A stretch of 64,000 nt of DNA, taken from assembly GCA_018970945.1 (NCBI GenBank), contig JAGWVJ010000002.1, positions 62,001 through 126,000 on the forward strand, given 5' to 3'. Shown piece by piece: positions 17,315 to 28,873 of this stretch. The notes under the pieces are model-generated. The model was given only the letters and a program-made list of their open reading frames with translations. It was not told the DNA's origin and did no database searches. Both the position numbers and the translations under genes were made by a program. This stretch comes from Cyanobacteria bacterium REEB417. GTDB lineage: Bacteria; Cyanobacteriota; Cyanobacteriia; PCC-6307; Cyanobiaceae. Numbering within the stretch: position 1 is the first letter of the stretch; the number at the start of each line of letters is the position of its first letter.

Positions 17315-18688
17315 TCAGGCCTCGCCCGTGATCGAGAGTCCCTCGACCCAGACGTGGGGACACACCCCATCAGGGGTCACCTTGGCTGCGCCTTCAAACC
17401 CAATCAGATTGTTGAGCACGCTGCGGATGTCGCCGGCGACGGTGGCGGCTTCGATCGATACGCGCTGGCCGTTGTCCATCAACCAGCCGTCGAACGGCAG
17501 CGAAAACGATCCCTGGCTGGCCTTGACTCCGGCATGCAGAGCCGAAAGCGAATCAATCAGCACCAGCGGCCCCTGATGGCGGCTGTGGTCCAGGCCTGCG
17601 GCACCGCCGGACGCGGCGGAGCTTCCGGCCGGTCCCACCTCGAAGTAGTCAGGCCCGACCGAGACCTTGGCTCCCATGCCCGCATGGCCGGTGGGGGCCA
17701 CACCGAAGGCTCGGGCCGTGGCCTCTGAATGCAGGAATTGACGCAACACCCCACCCTCGAGCAGGGTCAGGCGCCGGGTCGGGGTCCCTTCGCCGTCAAA
17801 GCTCGAGGCGCCGATGTTGCCGGGGTGCAGGCCGTTGTCGTGCAGATTGAGACACGGTGATGCCAGTTGCTGCCCCAGTGATTCGCGAGTGGACAGACTG
17901 ACTCCGTCGAGCACGGCACGGGCATTGAACAGGCTGCTGAAGGCGCCGATCAGATCGAGGAAGGCCTCAGGGCTGAACACGCAGGTGTAGCGACCGGTTG
18001 TGATCGGCGCATAGTCGAGGTGGCTGATCGTGCGTTCGGCCGCCTCATCGATGCAACCGGCGATGTCCAGGTCACCGGCGCCGTAGGCCAGTCGCACGGC
18101 CCCTGCGCTACGCGGCTTGCGGCCGCTTTGCTCGGCCCGGGCATACAGATACAGGCTGGCCGTGGTCATCGCCTGCTGGCGGGCGGCCCCGGCACTGTTG
18201 AGGTATAGGCGCTGGCTGCGGCGCTGGGCCAGGCCGTTGTAGGGCACGGTCCCGATCGCCGCATGGCGGCCCAGCAGCTCCCGCTCGGCGTCCTTGAGGG
18301 TGTCGAGCAGCTGCAGGATGTTGACCGGCTCGTGCAGGGGCTGCTCCAGCGGTTGCAGCGCCGCCGTGGCAAGAGGTGAGAAGGCCGGTGCGTCATCGGG
18401 ATTGCCGAAGGCGCTCGCCTCGCTGGCCCCCAGCAGGGCTCTCTCCAGCCCCTCGGCCGAAAGGTCGGAGGTGCTGGTGATGCCCACCAGCCCGTCAGTG
18501 TTCCAGGCGCGCACCGTGATGGCGCTGCGCTGGGCGGCCTTCATCTGCTTCGCTTCACCCCGATCGACCTGCACCGAGGTGTCGTCACTGCATGAGGCGC
18601 CCAGATCCCACTGGTCAATGCCATGGCGCTGGGCCAGGTGCTCCAGGCTCTGGCGCAGGCCTTCGGCATTCAGTTGGCTGGTGCCCAT
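17315..18688 (-). CDS. tldE: TldE/PmbA subunit of the TldD-TldE protease
   Basis: 457 residues, the non-catalytic partner of TldD. It lacks the HExxxH zinc site but has the family core (RGEAKQMK, then the central TGRYTCVFSPEAFLDLIGAF and FDGEGTPTRRLTLLEGG). TldD/TldE degrade unfolded peptides and mature some modified peptides such as microcins. The start ATG overlaps the tldD stop as TGATG, implying coupled translation and equal subunit supply. Confidence 0.93.
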   Translation of the reverse strand: MGTSQLNAEGLRQSLEHLAQRHGIDQWDLGASCSDDTSVQVDRGEAKQMKAAQRSAITVRAWNTDGLVGITSTSDLSAEGLERALLGASEASAFGNPDDAPAFSPLATAALQPLEQPLHEPVNILQLLDTLKDAERELLGRHAAIGTVPYNGLAQRRSQRLYLNSAGAARQQAMTTASLYLYARAEQSGRKPRSAGAVRLAYGAGDLDIAGCIDEAAERTISHLDYAPITTGRYTCVFSPEAFLDLIGAFSSLFNARAVLDGVSLSTRESLGQQLASPCLNLHDNGLHPGNIGASSFDGEGTPTRRLTLLEGGVLRQFLHSEATARAFGVAPTGHAGMGAKVSVGPDYFEVGPAGSSAASGGAAGLDHSRHQGPLVLIDSLSALHAGVKASQGSFSLPFDGWLMDNGQRVSIEAATVAGDIRSVLNNLIGFEGAAKVTPDGVCPHVWVEGLSITGEA

Positions 18689-20160
18689 CAGCGGCCCCCC
18701 ACGGTGATGCTGTCCACCTTGATATGGGGCTGACCCACCGTCACGAAGATGCTGCCGCTGACCGAACCGCAGAACCCAGCCGCCAACTCCAGATCGTTGG
18801 CGCACATCGAGATCCTTGGCATCACCTCCTTGGCTTCACCGATGAGAGTGGCCCCCTTCACCGGACGGGTCAGCTGACCGTTTTCGATCAGAAACGCCTC
18901 ATCGACCGCAAAGTTGAACTGGCCCGTGGGACCGACGCTGCCGCCACCCATCGATTTGCAATAGAGCCCCCGGTCGACCGATGCGATCAACTGCTCAGGG
19001 GTGTGGGGACCTGCGGCGATGTAGGTGTTGCGCATGCGGCTGGCGGCGGCGAATCCGTGGCTCTGGCGGCGGCCGCTGCCGGTGCGGGCATGGCCGGTGC
19101 GTTGCTCGCCGGCGCGATCGCTCAGGAAGCGCCTCAACACCCCGTTCTCGATCAGGACGGTGCGCTGGGGTTCCATGCCCTCGTCGTCCATGCTCAGTGA
19201 GCCGAAGGCACCAGGGCTCAAGCCTTCGTCGATGGCGGTCACCGCCTCATGGGCAATGGGTTCGCCCACCTTGTCGGCAAACGGGGTGGTGCCCCGCTCG
19301 ACCTGGGTGGTTTCGAGCAGATGCCCGCAGGCTTCGTGGAAGATCACACCACCGAAGCGGTTGGCCAGCACCGCCGGCATCTGGCCTGCTTCGACGTAGT
19401 CGGCGTAGAGCATGGTGGCGGCGCTGTCACAGATTTCCAGGGCCGAGGCGTCGGCGTCCCAGCGGCGCAGGTCGTCGGGGCTGTCGCTGGTGCCGTAGCG
19501 CCGCCCGAGGCTGGCGCGATGATCACCATCGGCGGCCAGCACGTTGAGCCCCAGGGACTGGTGCAGGCGAATGTCACGGGCGAAGGTGCCGTCGCTGGCG
19601 GCCACCAGTACCTCCTGCCAGTCGCGGCTGTAGCTGCCCCGGCGCACCTGCAGGTGGCGGCCATGGCGCTCCAGTCTGGCCGTGCCCTCCAGCAGCTTGG
19701 ACGAGGCCTCGGCCAGGCCGGGGCATGCGGCCAGCCAGGACACCTTGCTGCTGGCATGGTCGCGAAGAGCGGGCAGTCCATCAAAGCCATCGCTGCCGCC
19801 GGCCCGGCTGAGCGACGCGACCTGCAGACCAAGCATGCCGAGAGCCTGCTCGAGCGCGCTCTGAAGCCCCTGATCACTCAGGTCATTGGTGCTGACGAAA
19901 CCATCGCGGGAACCCAGGAAGACCCGGACGCCGGCGCCCAGCCCGAAGGCCGGACTCACGCTGGTGACCCGATCCTGTTCGGTCAGGACGCCCAGATGGT
20001 CGGTGCGTTCAAGAAAGACCTCGACCAGATCAGCTCCCGCACGTCGGCCGGAGGCGAGCAAGGCCTCAAGCCGGCCGCTCCAGAGACTGCCGAAACCGCC
20101 CAAAAGGATGGCTCCAGCTTGATGCGCTGGATCGCCAGCGCGCGTGGGGGTGATGGTCAA
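18688..20160 (-). CDS. tldD: TldD subunit of the TldD-TldE metalloprotease
   Basis: 490 residues. The zinc motif HEACGH (HExxxH) lies near residue 272, inside [15 protein letters not shown], followed by [10 protein letters not shown] and the conserved end [18 protein letters not shown]. It forms the active heterodimer with the TldE subunit encoded immediately downstream. The frame starts with TTG at 20160, 15 bp after acsF; I see no better start nearby, so the exact N-terminus is open. Confidence 0.93.
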
Positions 20161-20175
20161 GGTGGGGGTCTCCGT

Positions 20176-21297
20176 TCAGCGAACGGCAGGCTGGAACCGG
20201 TCGCTGCGGATCGGCGCCATCAGGAACAGCTTGGCCATCTCGGCAGCATTGGCGGCCCAGTAGGGGAGTTTGCGCAGCAGCTTCAGCGGAGCTGGGGCAG
20301 AAGTGGCGTCGGCCTCTGCCAGAGCGTTGTTGTTGCTGACCAGCCGTTCCAGACGCACATAGAACTTGGGGTGGTCGACGTTCAGAACCACCGGGAAGAC
20401 GCGGGCCGACGTCTCGTTGGTCTTGGCGATCACGTACTTGTCGTAGCTGCGGGCATCGAGGCCCAGGGCTTCGTAGAACTCCTTGCGGGCGACGTCGCGC
20501 ACATACATGGTGGCGAATACGGCCAGCAGAAAGAAACGGCACCACAGACGGGCCTGCAGCCCGCGCACTGAATCGGGCTGGGCCTTCATCAGGGCATCAA
20601 AGAAATCGCCATGACGATTCTCATCTTGGCACCAATTCTCAAAGAAATTGAAAATCGGGAAAATCTTGCTTTCCGGATGTTTTTCGAGGTGGCGGAAAAT
20701 GGCGATGTAACGCCAGTAACCAATCTTTTCAGACAGATAGGTGGCGTAAAAAATGAATTTTGGCTTGAAGAACGTGTAAGCCTTGTTGGCTGTCAGAAAG
20801 CCCAGGTCAAGCTGCAGGCCGAAGTCGGCCATGGACTTGTTGAGGAAGCCAGCATGGCGGGCCTCGTCGCGGGCCATGTGGGCAAAACACTCGGCGAGAA
20901 GTGGGTTTCTGTCTTTGATGCGGCGGCTCAGCTCCTTGTAGAGCAGGAAACCTGAAAACTCAGAGGTGCAGCTCTGCTCAAGAAATTCAATGAACACCCG
21001 ACGGGTCTCGGGATCCAGCTTGTCGGCAGCACCTTCGAACGCCTCGTTGCGCACGAAATGGTGTCGGTTGTAATCCTTGCGGAACTCCTCGCAGATGGCC
21101 TCGAGTTCCAGTTCGTTGGGCCGCAGATCCATCGCCGCCATGGCGTCGAAATCCGTGGTGTAGAAGCGCGGTGTCAGGATCGTGTCCTTGACCGGCTCCT
21201 TGATTGCCGGAGCGTCGGGGTTGCCGAGCGAGGTTGTGGTCGTGTCGGCTACGGCGGACGGAGGCACCATCGACTGCACAGGTGGCGTTGCCTGCAT
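20176..21297 (-). CDS. acsF: Mg-protoporphyrin IX monomethyl ester oxidative cyclase
   Basis: Aerobic diiron cyclase making the fifth ring of chlorophyll. About 373 residues from ATG 21297. Diiron ligands are visible in [29 protein letters not shown] and [13 protein letters not shown] nonconserved Pro/Thr-rich N-terminus precedes the fold. Part of the gene is unusually AT-rich: 20641-20760 is 47/120 G+C (39 percent) by my count, with AAA, AAT, ATT and TTT codons otherwise scarce nearby. It precedes tldD/tldE on the same strand; cyanobacteria often carry two cyclase copies (ChlA-I/ChlA-II) and I cannot say which this is. Confidence 0.96.
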
Positions 21298-21337
21298 CGT
21301 AGAGGCCACGCCGTCGCCACCGGGTGCTTGTAACGCC

Positions 21338-21790
21338 TCAGTTGGGCCCGAGCCATTTCTGGCCATTGAGCCGTTGCACCAGGCGGGAGACCAGCAGGGC
21401 CAGGCTCATTTTCTTTTCGTCGATCAGAAACGACTCCAGCACCGTCGGTGAGCTGCCCGGCTCAGCCAGGCTCACGGTCTTGGCCGCGTTGATGTCGGTC
21501 GCGGTGAAACACAACCAGAAACGGCGCCCATCGCTGAAACCTCCCTTGACCATCCAGCAGGGGCTTCCCACCACGGGCATGTCACCCTGCTCGAAGCTCA
21601 GATCGCAGGCCGGCCCACCGGTGCTGCTGATCTCCCTGGCCAGGGCCGGGATCAGCAGGTCGGGCACGAACCGTTCGAACGGCTGCTCCTCAGGGGCCGG
21701 AGGTTTGACCTTGGCGGCAGGGCCTGGGGTGCTGGGTTCAGACGCTGATCCGCTCGCTGGTTCGCTCGCCGGCACTGACCTGCTGGGCAA
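21338..21790 (-). CDS. DUF2996 protein
   Basis: About 145-150 residues. A disordered Ser/Pro/Ala N-terminus is followed by the domain: [53 protein letters not shown] and the terminal [11 protein letters not shown], which is the signature end of DUF2996. Function unknown; the family is confined to cyanobacteria and plastids. The start is uncertain (TTG 21790 or GTG 21775). It lies just upstream of acsF on the same strand, about 40 bp away. Confidence 0.88.
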
Positions 21791-21853
21791 CTGCCATGAC
21801 TCTAGGATTGGTGCCGGTCGGCTGGTCAGGACCCTCTGGTCGGACTCTCCCGG

Positions 21854-22345
21854 TCAGCCCCAGGCCTCATCGGTGGGTTGGTCCCAGCCGTCGTCGATGT
21901 CGGTGCGGGCAGCTGCGGCGGTCGCACGGGGAGCGGCACTGCCGCGGCGAATCACCCGGAAGGGCACCTCAACCGTTGGTGCCGGTTCTCCCGGCGCCCG
22001 GCTGGGCCCAGCGCCGCCTGCGCTGGACTGCGGTCGCTGCGGCGCCTGCCGGGAGGTTTGCCGCGGTGGGGTGGTAGCGCGTTCAGATGCCCTCGTCCCT
22101 GACGGTGGTGCAGCCGTCCAGGCTTCCCGGGTGCCCTGGCGCAGGGCCAGGGCCGTCGCGGCCGCGCTCAGTCCTGCACCGCCGGCCGCCGCGGCGGCAA
22201 TCCAGGCTCCCAGGGGCAGGGTGGGTGAGCTCCAGAGCAGCAGGCGCAGGCTCACCCCCGGACGGGGATTCGCCGCCGCCAGCAACAGAACCGCCAGCAG
22301 GGGTGCCAGCACCGGAAGCAACATCAGCTGACGCAGCACCTTCAC
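21854..22345 (-). CDS. Two-span membrane protein, unknown
   Basis: 163 residues with two hydrophobic segments (about residues 5-25 and 43-68), then a long polar, Pro/Arg/Thr-rich tail ending VEVPFRVIRRGS and DIDDGWDQPTDEAWG. The DDGWDQP end looks conserved and may bind a partner. I know of similar cyanobacterial membrane proteins but no function. It begins 7 bp after the ubiX stop on the same strand. Confidence 0.7.
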   Translation of the reverse strand: MKVLRQLMLLPVLAPLLAVLLLAAANPRPGVSLRLLLWSSPTLPLGAWIAAAAAGGAGLSAAATALALRQGTREAWTAAPPSGTRASERATTPPRQTSRQAPQRPQSSAGGAGPSRAPGEPAPTVEVPFRVIRRGSAAPRATAAAARTDIDDGWDQPTDEAWG

Positions 22346-22352
22346 GCTCGGC

Positions 22353-22970
22353 TCAGGGGCGACCCATCCATCGGTTCAGCGGAGCCAGCTCCTCGCCCAG
22401 CACATCAAACAGGCGAACCACCAGAAAATCCACCATGTCCTCAATGGTTTGAGGCTGGTGGTACCAGGCCGGTACGGGCGGAGCAATGCGCGCGCCCGCT
22501 TCGGCCAGGGCGGTGAGATTGCGTAGGTGCACGAGGTTCCAGGGGGTTTCGCGTGGGCAGATCACCAGGGGGCGAGCCTCCTTCAGGTGCACATCGGCTG
22601 CCCGCTCCAGCAGATCGGTGGCCACGCCGGCGGCAATCCTGCCAACGCAGCCCATGCTTGCCGGCAGGATCACCATGCCCCGGGTCCGATAGCTGCCGCT
22701 GGCGATGCTCGCTGCCTGGTCGTTCCAGCGATGGCAGCGCAGCTGTCCATCGGTGCTGCCGGTGCGGTCGCGCCAGAAGGCCTCCTGGGCTTCCGGTTCG
22801 CCGGGCAGCTGGATGCCGAGTTCGGCCTGCCAGACCGTGATCGCCCCGCGACTGGTGACCAGCTCCACCGAGTCGCCGGCATCCAGCAGGAGCTGGAGGG
22901 CCCGCTGCGCAAGGGGCTGGGCCGATGCCCCCGACACGGCCAGCACCAGTGGAGGCCGCGATGTGCCCAT
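22353..22970 (-). CDS. ubiX: UbiX-family flavin prenyltransferase
   Basis: Makes prenylated FMN, the cofactor of UbiD-type decarboxylases. 205 residues with the FMN-binding start LVLAVSGASAQPLAQRALQL, the Ser/Met region MVILPASMGCVGRIAAGVAT, and LVICPRETPWNLVHLRNL. No ubiD gene is in the window. It starts 2 bp after the stop of the RNase R-like gene, so the two are likely co-transcribed. Confidence 0.93.
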   Translation of the reverse strand: MGTSRPPLVLAVSGASAQPLAQRALQLLLDAGDSVELVTSRGAITVWQAELGIQLPGEPEAQEAFWRDRTGSTDGQLRCHRWNDQAASIASGSYRTRGMVILPASMGCVGRIAAGVATDLLERAADVHLKEARPLVICPRETPWNLVHLRNLTALAEAGARIAPPVPAWYHQPQTIEDMVDFLVVRLFDVLGEELAPLNRWMGRP

Positions 22971-22972
22971 GC

Positions 22973-25279
22973 TCAGTCGGCGTCCGGGGCGTTGCCGTTG
23001 TCGCCAGCGTGGTCGCGATCGACTGCGTCGCCATCGACCGGCTCGATTTCGACTTCGCCTTCAGGCAAAACCACGGCCAGATCAATCTGATGCCGCAGCG
23101 GATCCACCTTTTCGATCACCACATCAACGCTGTCGCCGAGCATGTAGGTGCGACGATTCTTGCGGCCTACCAGGCGGTTCTGGCGCGAACGGTACTCGTA
23201 CCAATCGTCTTTGAGGGAACTCACGTGCACCAGACCCTCCACCTGGGACGGGGGCACCTCCACGAAGAAGCCGTAGCTCTGCACGCCACTGATGGTGCCG
23301 CTGAGGGTCTGCCCAACCAGTGGCTCGGCCTGGCGAGCCTGGGCCATGGCCACCAGGTCGGTGCTGAAGTCCTGCAATTGACGATGGCGCTGGTTCAGGC
23401 GTTCGCTCAGCCCATGGGCCAGATCCTCGGTATAGGGCACGAGCACCCCTGCGGCGAGCAGGGGCCAGTCGATCTGGCCATGGCAGCTGTCTGCAGCCAG
23501 ATCCACGCTGGTCTTGTGGCGGATGCTCGGCCTGTCCTTGCCCTCCAGCAGCAGGGTCAGCAGCAGCTGCTGATTCCAGATGTCGGCGTAGTGCAGGGTC
23601 GGGTTGCACCACGGCGCCTGGGCCGTTGTGGCACCACCCAGCATGTGGAGACCGGCTTCGTCCGACAGCTGCACCGGGTTCAGGGTGCCGCGCAGCTGCT
23701 GCTGCAGGGGGCGCTGCCGCTCGCTGTGGCTGAAGCACTGGGCCAGTTCGGTCGCGCTGGTGTCGCCTTCCTCGCTCAGTTCAAGGGGAATCTCCAGGGC
23801 CAGGGCTGCTTTCACCACGTCATGCAGGTCGGCGGCGCTCGGCGCCGGGTTGACAGCAAAGATCGCCGGCAGTTCCAGGGCACTCAGATGTTGGCCCAGG
23901 GCGCGTTCGGCCAGCACAACGGCTTCACGCAGGATCGCGTGGGGGTGGTGGGGCGGCAGGATCACCATCCAGCCGTTGCGACTGGCATCGGGGGCGGGGA
24001 CGTGCAAATCGCCGAGCCGGTCGATCGCCGGCAGGGGCAGATCAAGATCGAGGGACCCCGCCGCCAGACGCTGCTCCCGCAGCTGGGTGCCCAAGGCGAC
24101 CAGCTGCTCGAGCAGGGGGAGATGGTCCTTGAGCGGTTTGAGAGGGGCGGCCAGGGTCCGGCTTTTGGGTTTGCGCTCGGCCAGGGCACTCAGGGCTGCC
24201 TCGCTCGCTACGGCATCGACCCTGATCAGGCTGCGGTGAAAGCGGAAGTGGAGCAGCTGGCCGTGGCTGTCGAGTTCCAGGGCCACCGACAGGGCTTCCT
24301 GGCTGTCGCCTGGCTTGAAGCCACAGGCCTTGCTGAGGGCCGCACTGAGCAGTGGCTGCCACTGGCCGCCCAGGCAAAGGGCTTCAGCCTGTTCCCGCAG
24401 CCACTGGTCTGTGCTGCTGCCGGGTGCCACCCGTTCGGCCACGCTGGGGGCATGCAGCCACAGGCGCTGGCCCTGTTCAAGGGGCTCCAGTGACAGCGCC
24501 GCCAGGGGTGGGGCTTCCTTTCCCTGCCAGGCTTCAAGCAGCAGGGTTGGCAGGCCGGTTAAATCGGTCCTGTTGTGGCCGCCCGGAGCCTTGGGTGTGG
24601 CCCGTGGCGCCGGGCCGCGGTCCTGCAGTCGATGCTTGGTCAGCAGCAGATCGAGGTCGGCGGCTTCACCGCCGTTGATCGGCAGGCTGCGGGTCACATG
24701 GCCAAAGGCTGGTCTCTGGGCCACCGGGAAGCGATCGACGACCACTTCGACAACGCTGTCGGCGTTGTCGTTGCAGTGCTTGCTGTCATCGCTCGGCAGC
24801 TCGATGCTGGTCAGCAGGCGGTCATCCAGCGGTTGGGCGATGATCCGCTCACCCTGCTGATCCAGCTGCGCCAGCAGGCTTGTGGTCGTGCGGGTCAGGA
24901 TGCACTGCACGCCCCCCTCGGGTGAACGACGCCGTCCGCCTTCGCGGGTGATCCGCACCAGCACCCGGTCGCCGTTCCAGGCGTGGTTGAGCTGGTGATC
25001 ACGGATGTAGATATCTTCACCGCCGTCTTCGCGCAGGGCAAAACAGAATCCTTTGCTCGAGCAGCGCAACCGGGCAGGAATCAGGCTGTCGTTGCTCAGC
25101 CGTTGCACCCCGGCGTCGTTCAGCTCGACCAGGCCAAGCCGACCCATGGCTTCGAGGCCGATGCGCAGGTGCTCTTTGTCACCTTTGAGGCTCAGACCCA
25201 GGGCTTTTTCGAGCTTGGCAACAGGCAGGGGCTCGGCGGCGGGAAGCTGGTCGAGCAGGTCAGCGACCGTGAACTTCAT
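22973..25279 (-). CDS. RNase R/II-like (RNB) protein with degenerate active site
   Basis: 768 residues with the RNase R architecture: an N-terminal winged helix (about residues 1-60), a cold-shock domain (LRCSSKGFCFALREDGGEDI onward), an RNB domain (about 225-600) and a C-terminal S1 domain from about 655 (GQTLSGTISGVQSYGFFVEV). The RNB catalytic loop, normally a DGxDARDFDDA segment, reads LLLEAWQGKEAPPLAALSLE near residue 246, so the metal-binding Asp residues are Pro, Leu and Ala. The second active-site block, usually SPIRRYxD, is NPTLHYADIW near 558. Active exonuclease is therefore unlikely; RNA binding may remain. The cyanobacterial Zam protein is a possible relative. The ATG at 25279 matches the domain start. 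Confidence 0.88.
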   Translation of the reverse strand: MKFTVADLLDQLPAAEPLPVAKLEKALGLSLKGDKEHLRIGLEAMGRLGLVELNDAGVQRLSNDSLIPARLRCSSKGFCFALREDGGEDIYIRDHQLNHAWNGDRVLVRITREGGRRRSPEGGVQCILTRTTTSLLAQLDQQGERIIAQPLDDRLLTSIELPSDDSKHCNDNADSVVEVVVDRFPVAQRPAFGHVTRSLPINGGEAADLDLLLTKHRLQDRGPAPRATPKAPGGHNRTDLTGLPTLLLEAWQGKEAPPLAALSLEPLEQGQRLWLHAPSVAERVAPGSSTDQWLREQAEALCLGGQWQPLLSAALSKACGFKPGDSQEALSVALELDSHGQLLHFRFHRSLIRVDAVASEAALSALAERKPKSRTLAAPLKPLKDHLPLLEQLVALGTQLREQRLAAGSLDLDLPLPAIDRLGDLHVPAPDASRNGWMVILPPHHPHAILREAVVLAERALGQHLSALELPAIFAVNPAPSAADLHDVVKAALALEIPLELSEEGDTSATELAQCFSHSERQRPLQQQLRGTLNPVQLSDEAGLHMLGGATTAQAPWCNPTLHYADIWNQQLLLTLLLEGKDRPSIRHKTSVDLAADSCHGQIDWPLLAAGVLVPYTEDLAHGLSERLNQRHRQLQDFSTDLVAMAQARQAEPLVGQTLSGTISGVQSYGFFVEVPPSQVEGLVHVSSLKDDWYEYRSRQNRLVGRKNRRTYMLGDSVDVVIEKVDPLRHQIDLAVVLPEGEVEIEPVDGDAVDRDHAGDNGNAPDAD

Positions 25280-25489
25280 GGTTGGGGCGGGCGAACGGCA
25301 GCAGGACGGGCTCAGCTGGCGGCGGTCTGGAATCCCACGGCACGGTCCCTGCAAGAACGGGGGTGTCGCGCGGAAGTCCGGCTGCGATGGCTGGGCAGGA
25401 ACGCTCAGGGCTCGAAGCGATGCCCTAAGACCCTGCGACTCCCGGAGGGGTTACTTCAATCTTACCCAGCCGTTCGGTCGTGGCCGGGC

Positions 25490-25792
25490 TCACTCCGGTG
25501 GCGTCCCGGCGTTGGCGAGGCTGCGGATGATCAGCTGCATGCCGATCAGCAGAAACCCCACGGCGGCGGCCAGTTGCAGAAGGTTGGTGGGAATCAGGCT
25601 CGACAGGGATCCTCCCGCCGCCGCCCCCACCAGGCTGGCCAGCACCAGGGCCGTGGCGCTGCCGGCAAACACCGCGCCGGGACGGCTGCTGGTGCCGCTG
25701 ATGGTGACGATCGCCAGCTGGGTCTTGTCGCCTAGTTCTGCCAGAAACACCGTCGCGAAGGTGGAGGCCAGCAGGCCCAGAGGGAGCGCCAT
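25490..25792 (-). CDS. UPF0016-type hemi-manganese exporter, subunit B
   Basis: 100 residues, about three membrane segments with one ExGDKT motif: TVFLAELGDKTQLAIVTISG near residues 14-33. The Mnx/GDT1 family normally has two such repeats in one protein; here each repeat is a separate gene. Established work shows that cyanobacteria can use paired half-size exchangers to export Mn2+ and protect photosynthesis. It begins 5 bp after the companion gene, giving co-expression. Confidence 0.9.
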   Translation of the reverse strand: MALPLGLLASTFATVFLAELGDKTQLAIVTISGTSSRPGAVFAGSATALVLASLVGAAAGGSLSSLIPTNLLQLAAAVGFLLIGMQLIIRSLANAGTPPE

Positions 25793-25797
25793 GGGTC

Positions 25798-26169
25798 TCA
25801 GCTGAAGTTGGGCAAGGTCAGAATGGCCTGCCGGCCGAGCCACAGACCGAGCACCACCATCAGGATTCCGGCAAGGCGTTCCAACAGTTCCGGAGCCAGC
25901 AGGCGGGCCAGCCAGCGGCCGAGCACCACCCCCACCAGTGACGAACAGATCAGGGCCAGCGAGGCGCCGGCAAACACCACCATGGGCTGGCCCGACTGGG
26001 CCGACAGCAGCAGGGCGGCCAACTGGGTCTTGTCTCCGAGTTCGGCCAAAAACACGGTGGTGGCAGTGGTCACGAACACCGCCCCCCAGCCGGCTGAAGC
26101 CGGGCCGACCTCGCCCGCACCGACCCCGCCCGCAGCGTCGATGCTTACCGGCTCCTGCTGGTCGCTCAT
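25798..26169 (-). CDS. UPF0016-type hemi-manganese exporter, subunit A
   Basis: 123 residues: a polar 25-residue N-terminus, then the motif TVFLAELGDKTQLAALLLSA and further hydrophobic helices. It is the other half of the two-gene exchanger; the acidic motif residues line the metal site in the family. The ATG at 26169 overlaps the stop of the YkgJ-type gene (ATGA), so the three genes form a tight operon. Mn2+ is the likely substrate in a phototroph, Ca2+ possible. Confidence 0.9.
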   Translation of the reverse strand: MSDQQEPVSIDAAGGVGAGEVGPASAGWGAVFVTTATTVFLAELGDKTQLAALLLSAQSGQPMVVFAGASLALICSSLVGVVLGRWLARLLAPELLERLAGILMVVLGLWLGRQAILTLPNFS

Positions 26170-26579
26170 CGCCGCCGTCCGTTGGCCCGCAGAAATCGTT
26201 TCATCACCTTGCCACGGCCGCCGTATTCGCTGCGGATCTGCTGCGTGCAGCAGTCGATGGCGAAGGCTTCGCCCGCTGCGCTGCCCAGGCCTTCGGGGGC
26301 AAACAGGTTGACCAGGTTGCTCACCTGGCAGAAGTCGGGCCGCTCGCTGTAAATGCGGCAGCGCCGGCTGCCTGTGTCGAAATGGCGGCACCATCCGTCG
26401 TCGCCCACCAGGGCCAGATAGGTCTGCCGCTGCACGGGGCTGAGGGCTTCCAGGGCCTCCTGACGCAGGGCCGGATCCAGCCGGCAGCAGGCTCCGCAAC
26501 CGGTGATGCACTGCCACTTGGGCATCGAGCCTGAGCCTGAGGGCGCCATGCAGCCTGGTGCGCTGATGCGCTCCAGCAT
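26166..26579 (-). CDS. YkgJ-family cysteine cluster protein
   Basis: 137 residues with [11 protein letters not shown] near residue 24-34, [19 protein letters not shown] and DFCQV, the Cys pattern of the UPF0153/YkgJ family, thought to bind zinc or an iron-sulfur cluster. Exact function is unknown. It is first in the operon with the two hemi-manganese exchangers and overlaps the next gene by 4 bp, which hints at a metal-related role. It is divergent from psb30. Confidence 0.9.
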
Positions 26580-26708
26580 GACAAGCCGTCACAGCCGGCC
26601 AGCGGAGTGCGGGCCCGGCCCGCCGGGGCTTTTAATCTGATGGGGCAGCTCGACCTGCTGCAGGCCGCTGATTCCCGATCCCGACCCGAGCCCCCCAACC
26701 CGAGCCCG

Positions 26709-26810
26709 ATGGATTTCCACCTGATCGCCAACTTCGCTGCTCTGGCGCTGATCACCCTGGCCGGACCTGCGGTGATCTTCATCCTTTTCTACCGCCGCGG
26801 CGCTCTCTGA
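26709..26810 (+). CDS. psb30: Photosystem II reaction centre protein Psb30 (Ycf12)
   Basis: 33 residues, [20 protein letters not shown] followed by a short end with FYRRGAL. The single membrane helix, the AGPAV turn and the terminal RRGxL are diagnostic of Psb30, a small peripheral subunit of photosystem II. In-frame upstream codons (from 26607) are Arg/Pro-rich and not part of the protein; the ATG at 26709 is the start. The gene stands alone between YkgJ and recJ. Confidence 0.92.
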
Positions 26811-26839
26811 CCGTGCGTTCCTGAACCCTGGAGTGGGAT

Positions 26840-28873
26840 TCAGGCGGCAAGTCCGAGGGCTACAGCCGCTTCATCCAACAGGCGTTGCACGTAAGGGTGG
26901 ATGTCTCCGCCTCCCCCCACGTCGCCGACACAACCCCCCTGGCCAATGGCCCCGCCACCTGAACCGTGCAGCCTGGCCAGCCGCTCTGCAAGCGGCTGGC
27001 GCAATTCGTTGCCGGCAGCGTTGCGCACCACCAGATCGTCGCCCTCCTGCTGACACCAGTAAGTGCGCCGGTTTCGGTGCAGCACCACCACGGCCCTGTC
27101 GCGCTGGCTGGCTCGGAGCCCCACCAGTTCGAGCTGGAGACGCTCGTGGCCCTGCCACTGGTCCTGGACCAGCCGGTAGGCCACATCGACATAGGGTGGC
27201 AGGCCGGCCGGGCCCTGCCAGCGCCAGCCCATGGCTCTGGTGCGGGCGGGGCCCTGGCTGAGTTCAAGCTGCAGATGCCCGCCCCGCAGCACCGCGCTGT
27301 GCTCCACCCGGCAGGCGCGGCTCCAGAACACCGGGGCGGGCTGGCCGATGCCAAACGGGCCGAGGCGCTGGTGCTGCTGCCAGAAGCCGCGGTCGATGCT
27401 GCTGAGTCCCAGCAGGGCCTCGGGTTCCACCGGTAACCCCTGACCGTGCTGCTGCTGCCAGGTGGCGGCTAACCCGTTGAGATCGTGATGCAGGGCTGCC
27501 AGCGCTTCGGCCCGCACGCTGAAACCACCGGCCGCCGGGTGGCCGCCGAACCGCTCGAGGTGGTGCGAACAGGCCTGCAGCGCCGCATCGACGGCGAAGC
27601 CCTTGGGCGCGCGCACTGAGGCCCTCAGGCGACCGTCACCTTCGCTCGCCAGCAGGGCGGCAGGCTGGCCGAAGCGCTCGACCAGGCGGGCGGCCACGAT
27701 GCCGATCACGCCGTGATGCCAGTGGTTCTGGGCAATCAGCAGAAACGGACTGCGCCGTTCGCCATCGGCCTCAATCAGGGCCAGCGCTTCGGCTTCGATC
27801 GCGTCGCAGAGGTCGCGGCGCTGGCGATTGAGGGCCTCGCACTGCCGGGCCAGCTCCAGCGCCCGAGCCGTGTTGTCGGTGGTCAGCAGTTCCACCACCA
27901 GGGCCGGATCCCCAAGCCTTCCCACCGCATTGATGCGTGGCGCCAGCTTGAAACTCACGGCCTGGGCATCGAGCGCCTGATCATCAAGACCCGCCAGCTG
28001 CATCAGGGACTGCAGGCCGGGTAGGGGGCTGGCGGCCAGGCGCGGCAGTCCCTCCTGGAGCCAGCGGCGATTCACACCCTGCAGCGGAGCCATGTCGGCG
28101 ATGGTGCCGATGCAAAACAGATTGAGCGCGATGTCCAGCCCCTCGGCATCGCCAAGGGTTTCGCAGAGGGCGGCCGCCAGCACGTAAGCCAGTCCCACGC
28201 CGGCCAGCCCTCGGTAGGGGGAATCGCATGGCGTCACGGCCGGGTGCAGCAGCGCCAGGTGGGGCGGCAGCGTGGTGGGCAGGGTGTGGTGGTCCGTGAG
28301 GATCACCTCCAGCCTCAGTTCCTGGGCCTTTTCAAGGGCGGCGGCAGCGCTGACACCGTTGTCGACCGTGATCAGCAGGGTGATCGAGCGGCCCGCAAGC
28401 TCTTCCACCATCGCGGTGTTGAGCCCGTAGCCGTCGTTCATGCGGCTGGGGATCGCCGCCACGGGCCGGGCTCCAAGCCGTTGCAGCACGCCCACCAGCA
28501 GGGCGGTGCTGGTCATGCCATCGGCGTCATAGTCGCCACAGATCGCGATCGCCTCCTGCCGGCTGCAGGCCTGGCGCAGCCGCTGCACCGCCTTGTCCAG
28601 GTCGGCGAAATGGTCGCTCGCCGGCGGCGGCGGATCTGGCCGCAGCAAGGCCGCGATCGCTGCGGCGTCACAGTGTCCACGGCGCAGCAGCACTGCCACC
28701 AGTTCGGGCGCCAGCCCGGCGCGCCGGGCCAGTTGATCCAGTGAAGCGCTCTGCTGCGGCGTCAGGGGTTCAGGCAGCTGCCAGCGTTGCTCGTCGATCG
28801 GGGGCAGCAACGGGCACAGGCAACACCGATCCATTGTGCTGGCTGCCGCCGATTGGTCCAGGCGGTTCTCCAT
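26840..28873 (-). CDS. recJ: Single-stranded-DNA-specific exonuclease RecJ
   Basis: 5'-3' single-strand DNA exonuclease in recombination and mismatch or base-excision repair. 677 residues with the DHH-family motifs: CGDYDADGMTSTALL near residue 113, VDNGVSA, LTDHHTLP near 190, and the DHHA1 motif FGGHPAAGGFSV. A C-terminal OB-like domain follows GPFGIGQPAPVFW. The start at 28873 leaves a 29-bp divergent spacer to the CbbY-like gene; an ATG 13 codons in is an alternative. Confidence 0.95.
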   Translation of the reverse strand: MENRLDQSAAASTMDRCCLCPLLPPIDEQRWQLPEPLTPQQSASLDQLARRAGLAPELVAVLLRRGHCDAAAIAALLRPDPPPPASDHFADLDKAVQRLRQACSRQEAIAICGDYDADGMTSTALLVGVLQRLGARPVAAIPSRMNDGYGLNTAMVEELAGRSITLLITVDNGVSAAAALEKAQELRLEVILTDHHTLPTTLPPHLALLHPAVTPCDSPYRGLAGVGLAYVLAAALCETLGDAEGLDIALNLFCIGTIADMAPLQGVNRRWLQEGLPRLAASPLPGLQSLMQLAGLDDQALDAQAVSFKLAPRINAVGRLGDPALVVELLTTDNTARALELARQCEALNRQRRDLCDAIEAEALALIEADGERRSPFLLIAQNHWHHGVIGIVAARLVERFGQPAALLASEGDGRLRASVRAPKGFAVDAALQACSHHLERFGGHPAAGGFSVRAEALAALHHDLNGLAATWQQQHGQGLPVEPEALLGLSSIDRGFWQQHQRLGPFGIGQPAPVFWSRACRVEHSAVLRGGHLQLELSQGPARTRAMGWRWQGPAGLPPYVDVAYRLVQDQWQGHERLQLELVGLRASQRDRAVVVLHRNRRTYWCQQEGDDLVVRNAAGNELRQPLAERLARLHGSGGGAIGQGGCVGDVGGGGDIHPYVQRLLDEAAVALGLAA

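Follow-up and report, generated by a model that had tools for sequence, protein, structure and literature searches.

Sequence analysis of a Zam orthologue with a degenerate RNB active site from a Cyanobium/Synechococcus-type cyanobacterium

Bacterial pseudonucleases are few, and Zam is among them; in 2022 its active sites were described as degenerate and Zam proteins as probably not nucleases (PMC9145284). Purified Zam of Synechococcus PCC 7002 lacked nuclease activity, a result given with the authors' own caution about aggregation (PMC9145284). The deletion phenotype, comprising altered pigmentation and a redox-dependent function, has been described for PCC 7002 only (PMC9145284), and in that strain a Cys73Ser or Cys79Ser exchange is equivalent to deletion, with altered pigment and photosystem ratios (PMC9145284). 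Here we analyse an RNB-family gene of Cyanobacteria bacterium REEB417 within a stretch of 64,000 nucleotides (the window, to which all coordinates refer). The original prediction for this DNA, an RNase R-like protein devoid of its catalytic aspartates, is a correct observation of a known family; the worthwhile additions are a graded loss of the catalytic acids along the Zam tree and a signature peculiar to the picocyanobacterial proteins.

The gene, its family and its neighbourhood

The gene occupies an unbroken minus-strand frame of 768 codons plus stop at 22973-25279, and our ORF check agrees with the original prediction in position, length and continuity. Its features are as follows.

22973..25279, minus strand: zam, RNB-family pseudonuclease, 768 aa (ORF, Pfam, alignment)
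25082..25279, minus strand: N-terminal winged helix, residues 1-66 (helices and strands predicted in the model)
24890..25081, minus strand: CSD1 (OB fold), residues 67-130 (Pfam OB_RNB; conservation 0.91; dN/dS 0.026)
25043..25063, minus strand: redox pair Cys73/Cys79 in the RNA-contact loop RCSSKGFCF of CSD1
23510..24589, minus strand: RNB domain, residues 231-590, catalytically degenerate (Pfam RNB; catalytic positions)
24497..24535, minus strand: ex-metal-binding loop, residues 249-261 (E249, P257, L259 and A260 replace four Asp)
24128..24175, minus strand: picocyanobacterial basic patch, residues 369-384 (R369, K370, K372, R374, K381, K384)
23582..23605, minus strand: NPTLHYAD, residues 559-566, replacing SPIRRYxD (L562 at the catalytic Arg position)
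23060..23347, minus strand: S1 domain, residues 645-740 (Pfam; dN/dS 0.021)

Pfam recognises OB_RNB, CSD2, RNB and S1, the RNB match reaching 152 bits against a curated cut-off of 29.3, and the winged helix is seen in an AlphaFold model (mean pLDDT 93.3, pTM 0.90), so that the predicted domain order is borne out. The model overlays on E. coli RNase R with a TM score of 0.83 normalised by target length. The protein nevertheless scores 206 bits against a cut-off of 598 for the NCBIfam RNase R model, and it also falls far under the cut-off of the general VacB/RNase II model.

Its sequence identifies the gene as the zam orthologue of a freshwater cyanobacterium of the Cyanobium/Synechococcus type. 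We collected 80 orthologues, mainly from Cyanobium and Synechococcus, the nearest of which (L002, 91% identity) comes from a freshwater-type Synechococcaceae MAG. In a phylum-wide search, all genomes listed for the class Cyanobacteriia, to which REEB417 belongs, had a strong match (E < 1e-44), 89 match-less genomes standing outside that list; more remote lineages of the phylum, presumed to be non-photosynthetic, matched only weakly. Zam appears to be universal in photosynthetic cyanobacteria. Cys73 is present in 167 of 169 aligned Zam proteins and Cys79 in 168, the pair is absent from cyanobacterial Rnb and from E. coli RNase R, and the redox pair of PCC 7002 Zam carries the same numbers (PMC9145284). 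W101 and R116-R118 likewise correspond to the Trp and the Arg repeat of the published CSD1 analysis. In our tree the Zam proteins fall on one branch (SH-aLRT 94) and cyanobacterial Rnb lies outside it; the topology has a weak root and two long-branched E. coli sequences whose placement we do not trust. The original suggestion of a relative of Zam was therefore right and can be put more strongly, since the phylum search, the shared cysteines, the grouping in the tree and the published account (PMC9145284) all identify an orthologue.

One natural exception at the first cysteine is found in the finished genome of Synechococcus sp. RCC307 (L072), where Cys73 is replaced by Ser and CSD1 reads RVRSSSKGFCF; its relatives L071, L074 and L075 retain Cys73.

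Three neighbouring features are relevant to the genomic context of zam.

22353..22970, minus strand: ubiX, flavin prenyltransferase family (ORF; synteny)
20176..21366, minus strand: acsF, aerobic Mg-protoporphyrin ester cyclase (ORF; same conserved run as zam)
25490..26178, approximate bounds, minus strand: two GDT1/UPF0016-like genes directly upstream of zam (two ELGDKTQLA motifs; synteny)

The frame that begins 2 bases past the zam stop codon, in keeping with the predicted coupling, is one that we take to be ubiX, as in the original prediction, and that at 20176..21366 is presumably acsF, as recognised from its sequence. Both the window (18688-28873) and L002-L107 carry, on one strand, recJ, a CxxC protein gene, two GDT1-like genes, zam, ubiX, a small ORF, a DUF protein gene, acsF and tldD, and this run from recJ to tldD is kept from Cyanobium to marine Synechococcus and part of Prochlorococcus. 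The conserved run gdt1-gdt1-zam-ubiX-orf-DUF-acsF is described here for the first time. Elsewhere in the cyanobacteria zam and ubiX adjoin each other in at least 11 of 25 other loci, with flanks that differ in length. In three loci of group g9 (L114, L117 and L118) ubiX is absent between zam and DUF-acsF, its place being taken by a small, unrelated-looking ORF, and a search of six Prochlorococcus-type g9 genomes with one protein query, the window's ubiX, and no positive control did not find the gene. The quinone and chlorophyll genes and those for probable Mn/Ca transport beside zam, named in part from sequence motifs, would fit a role in photosynthesis.

The lost catalytic site and the selection acting on the gene

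The alignment comprised RNase II and R of E. coli, 169 proteins of Zam type and 23 RNB proteins of canonical type, the latter almost exclusively cyanobacterial Rnb. The four-acid metal site is missing from the REEB417 protein: RNase II residues D201, D207, D209 and D210 align with E249, P257, L259 and A260. The catalytic Arg and both active-site Tyr are also absent, R500 being opposed by L562, Y253 by C302 and Y313 by E360; E542 was left out of the comparison as the linker aligns unreliably with RNase R. Both motifs quoted in the original prediction, AWQGKEAPPLAALS and NPTLHYAD, are present to the letter, and its description of the canonical loop as four aspartates is nearly right, except that cyanobacterial Rnb read DDDD or DEDD. 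Orthologues at 56-91% identity carry the same kind of replacements, which are therefore due neither to sequencing error nor to chance, and the same loops are opposed when the protein is aligned by profile to solved structures of RNase R, independently of the residue alignment. The loss of the catalytic site is real but, having been published in 2022, largely known.

Could activity have been rebuilt from different residues? The RNB fold is retained, and the Anabaena RNB protein Alr1240 is reported to be active (PMC10989914). However, neither that profile alignment nor the confident model of Zam revealed an intact set of aspartates elsewhere in the protein, a finding that would have told against the predicted loss. 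The conserved residues of the picocyanobacterial RNB domain include no evident acid cluster from which a metal site could be remade; the conserved acids are scattered, several being common to all RNB proteins outside the metal site. With the metal site wholly gone, no evident substitute, and the catalytic Arg and both Tyr lost, we regard a retained nuclease activity as very improbable. The exoribonuclease label that many genome annotations give to Zam (PMC9145284) is probably wrong.

Nearly all of 121 family genomes carry a pair of RNB genes: besides zam there is a shorter, canonical gene that scores up to 247 bits. In the REEB417 assembly (78.6% complete, 82 contigs) a second, active RNB gene was not found with either the family model or the sister's Rnb as query, and the DNA flanks of the sister's rnb gave no useful match in a search that is weak at such divergence. 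Since the assembly is incomplete and the two nearest relatives, the same-genus G025 and the genome of L002, both possess canonical Rnb, the absence is probably an assembly gap. In the canonical Rnb genes of the nearest relatives (G025:C172:32547-33416 and G341:C1:46424-47287) the match to the RNB model is broken into two segments, between which about 50 model positions (228-285) find no counterpart although the frame is open. The general co-occurrence of Zam and Rnb would suit a role in which Zam competes with the canonical enzyme by protecting 3' ends, but we consider this improbable: CSD1 and S1 are under the strongest selection, and Zam no longer has the active-site residues by which the 3' end is gripped. 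An RNA chaperone, likewise suggested in the original prediction, is a possible role.

The selection analysis used Nei-Gojobori counts from our own script. Against L002, dN/dS is 0.112 for the whole gene and 0.026, 0.021 and 0.144 for CSD1, S1 and RNB, respectively; against four more distant orthologues the whole-gene values are 0.17-0.25. CSD1 and S1 are also the best-conserved parts of the protein. A gene in decay might be suspected from the lost active site and from the fragmentary zam of a few lineages (G199, G333). Yet the frame is open, dN/dS is 0.11, the gene is present in all related genomes and its new residues are invariant, all of which argues against decay and makes that explanation barely tenable. 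Strong purifying selection and family-wide conservation instead support the original view of a purposeful loss. As for the fragments themselves, L173 (G199) lacks the metal loop and has lost the cysteines, while L174 (G333) lacks the metal loop and is split into two frames; possibly these represent one decaying lineage.

The acids are not lost uniformly. All four are kept in 23 of 23 Rnb proteins, whereas among 66 non-picocyanobacterial Zam proteins three acids remain in 4, two in 30, one in 30 and none in 2, and among 103 picocyanobacterial ones 67 have none and 36 have one. In the Zam part of our tree, which was built with the catalytic columns excluded, L116, L129 and L138 (DADD with SPxRRYPD) and L137 (ETDD) form the deepest branches. 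As these deep sequences keep three acids, the loss looks stepwise, the D207 position going first and the others later, with what looks like complete erasure on the long branch to the picocyanobacteria, a direction that hinges on the weak rooting of the tree. This graded loss is new here, and provides a natural series with three, two, one and no acids for testing whether nuclease activity ever mattered. In the Zam proteins L168-L171 of family f11 the ex-metal-binding loop is the precise site of a long insert, acidic and of low complexity.

The picocyanobacterial RNB domain and the role of Zam

The ex-metal-binding loop holds new conserved residues, W251 and P257, and a further new conserved residue, W557, lies immediately N-terminal of NPTLHYAD. 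Across picocyanobacterial Zam, W251, P257, L259, P260, W274, W307, W557 and E282 are nearly fixed, as are R369, K370, R374, K381, K384, N569, Q570 and K581; in short, four Trp, APxLPA, RKxKxR...KxxK and NQ. REEB417 itself has A rather than P at position 260. Most of these residues are seldom or never encountered in other Zam proteins or in Rnb, K/R at 581 being common to other Zam, and the positions were chosen for being conserved, which makes the signature a description and not a test. The basic patch at 369-384 is at least 95% K/R across the 103 picocyanobacterial proteins and mostly missing in other Zam and in Rnb. Even the Prochlorococcus-like g9 genomes (1.6-1.7 Mb), with an RNB domain only 21-22% identical to that of REEB417, have nearly all signature residues the same, which argues that the domain is constrained for something besides catalysis.

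This signature is new here. To judge from these alignments, the ex-nuclease domain of picocyanobacteria has probably been re-purposed, and the emptied pocket with the neighbouring basic patch is perhaps a binding surface for RNA or a partner. We tentatively raise a stronger version, which we hold possible but short of probable: the dead RNB domain may form a new functional module across the picocyanobacteria, which comprise Prochlorococcus, Cyanobium and both marine and freshwater Synechococcus, with the emptied metal pocket, rebuilt around the invariant Trp251/Pro257/Trp557, and the adjacent basic patch as a putative clade-specific binding site, so that Zam would there do something that other Zam proteins do not. 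The signature, found in the most abundant phototrophs on Earth, points to residues worth mutating.

For Zam as a whole we favour, with moderate confidence, a non-catalytic regulator that binds RNA and/or RNase E and is switched by a Cys73-Cys79 disulfide. Zam would bind through its OB folds; the disulfide in the RNA-contact loop of CSD1 would switch binding with the photosynthetic redox state; and the switched binding would in turn tune mRNA turnover of photosynthesis genes. The model is consistent with the lost metal site, with selection on the OB folds and with conservation of the cysteine pair. Alr1240 is reported to bind RNase E and to stimulate it (PMC10989914), and it has been identified as Zam (PMC9145284). 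However, the exonuclease activity reported for Alr1240 (PMC10989914) is at odds with its being Zam, and purified PCC 7002 Zam, which is aggregation-prone, bound no RNA in the authors' hands (PMC9145284). RCC307, as a natural Cys73Ser variant, further indicates that the disulfide may be dispensable in some lineages.

An alternative modelled on Ssd1 would have Zam bind chosen mRNAs and affect their translation or stability with no role in an RNase E degradosome. Ssd1, a member of the same family, has lost catalysis in a similar way and is matched by both the profile and the model of Zam, and fungal pseudonucleases keep their CSDs under constraint (PMC8097288), just as the OB folds are the most constrained parts of Zam. 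The RNase E binding reported for the Anabaena protein that has been called Zam and the RNA binding not seen with the purified PCC 7002 protein both weigh against this alternative, which seems to us rather unlikely.

Comparison with described RNB proteins

By sequence profile and by fold, the best solved-structure match of Zam is bacterial RNase R, with which it shares the winged helix, two CSDs, RNB and S1. Zam differs in its predicted lack of catalysis and in falling below the NCBIfam RNase R cut-off; identity as an active RNase R or RNase II appears ruled out by the missing four acids, Arg and two Tyr together with the failed equivalog cut-off. We know of no redox cysteine pair in Ssd1. Descent of the Ssd1 type, from Dis3L2, was not found for Zam, whose closest match by profile and fold comparison is bacterial RNase R. 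Yeast Ssd1 resembles Zam in belonging to the same family, in having lost catalysis, independently, and in its constrained CSDs (PMC8097288), while it differs in its Dis3L2 descent and its occurrence in fungi.

Cyanobacterial Rnb (RNase II; Synechocystis sll1290) is also of the RNB family and co-occurs with Zam in the same genomes. Unlike Zam, it retains the complete set of four acids, two Tyr and one Arg in each of the 23 proteins, lacks the CSD1 cysteines and occupies its own branch of the tree.

The closest system is the acetazolamide-resistance protein Zam itself (Synechocystis sll1910, Synechococcus PCC 7002 A1543), with the same domain order, degenerate RNB site, Cys73/Cys79 numbering, CSD1 Trp and Arg repeat, and confinement to photosynthetic cyanobacteria as found here. 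Where other Zam proteins keep up to three acids, the loss is total in REEB417 and zero or one of four acids is left across the picocyanobacteria, whose RNB domain bears a new, clade-specific signature.
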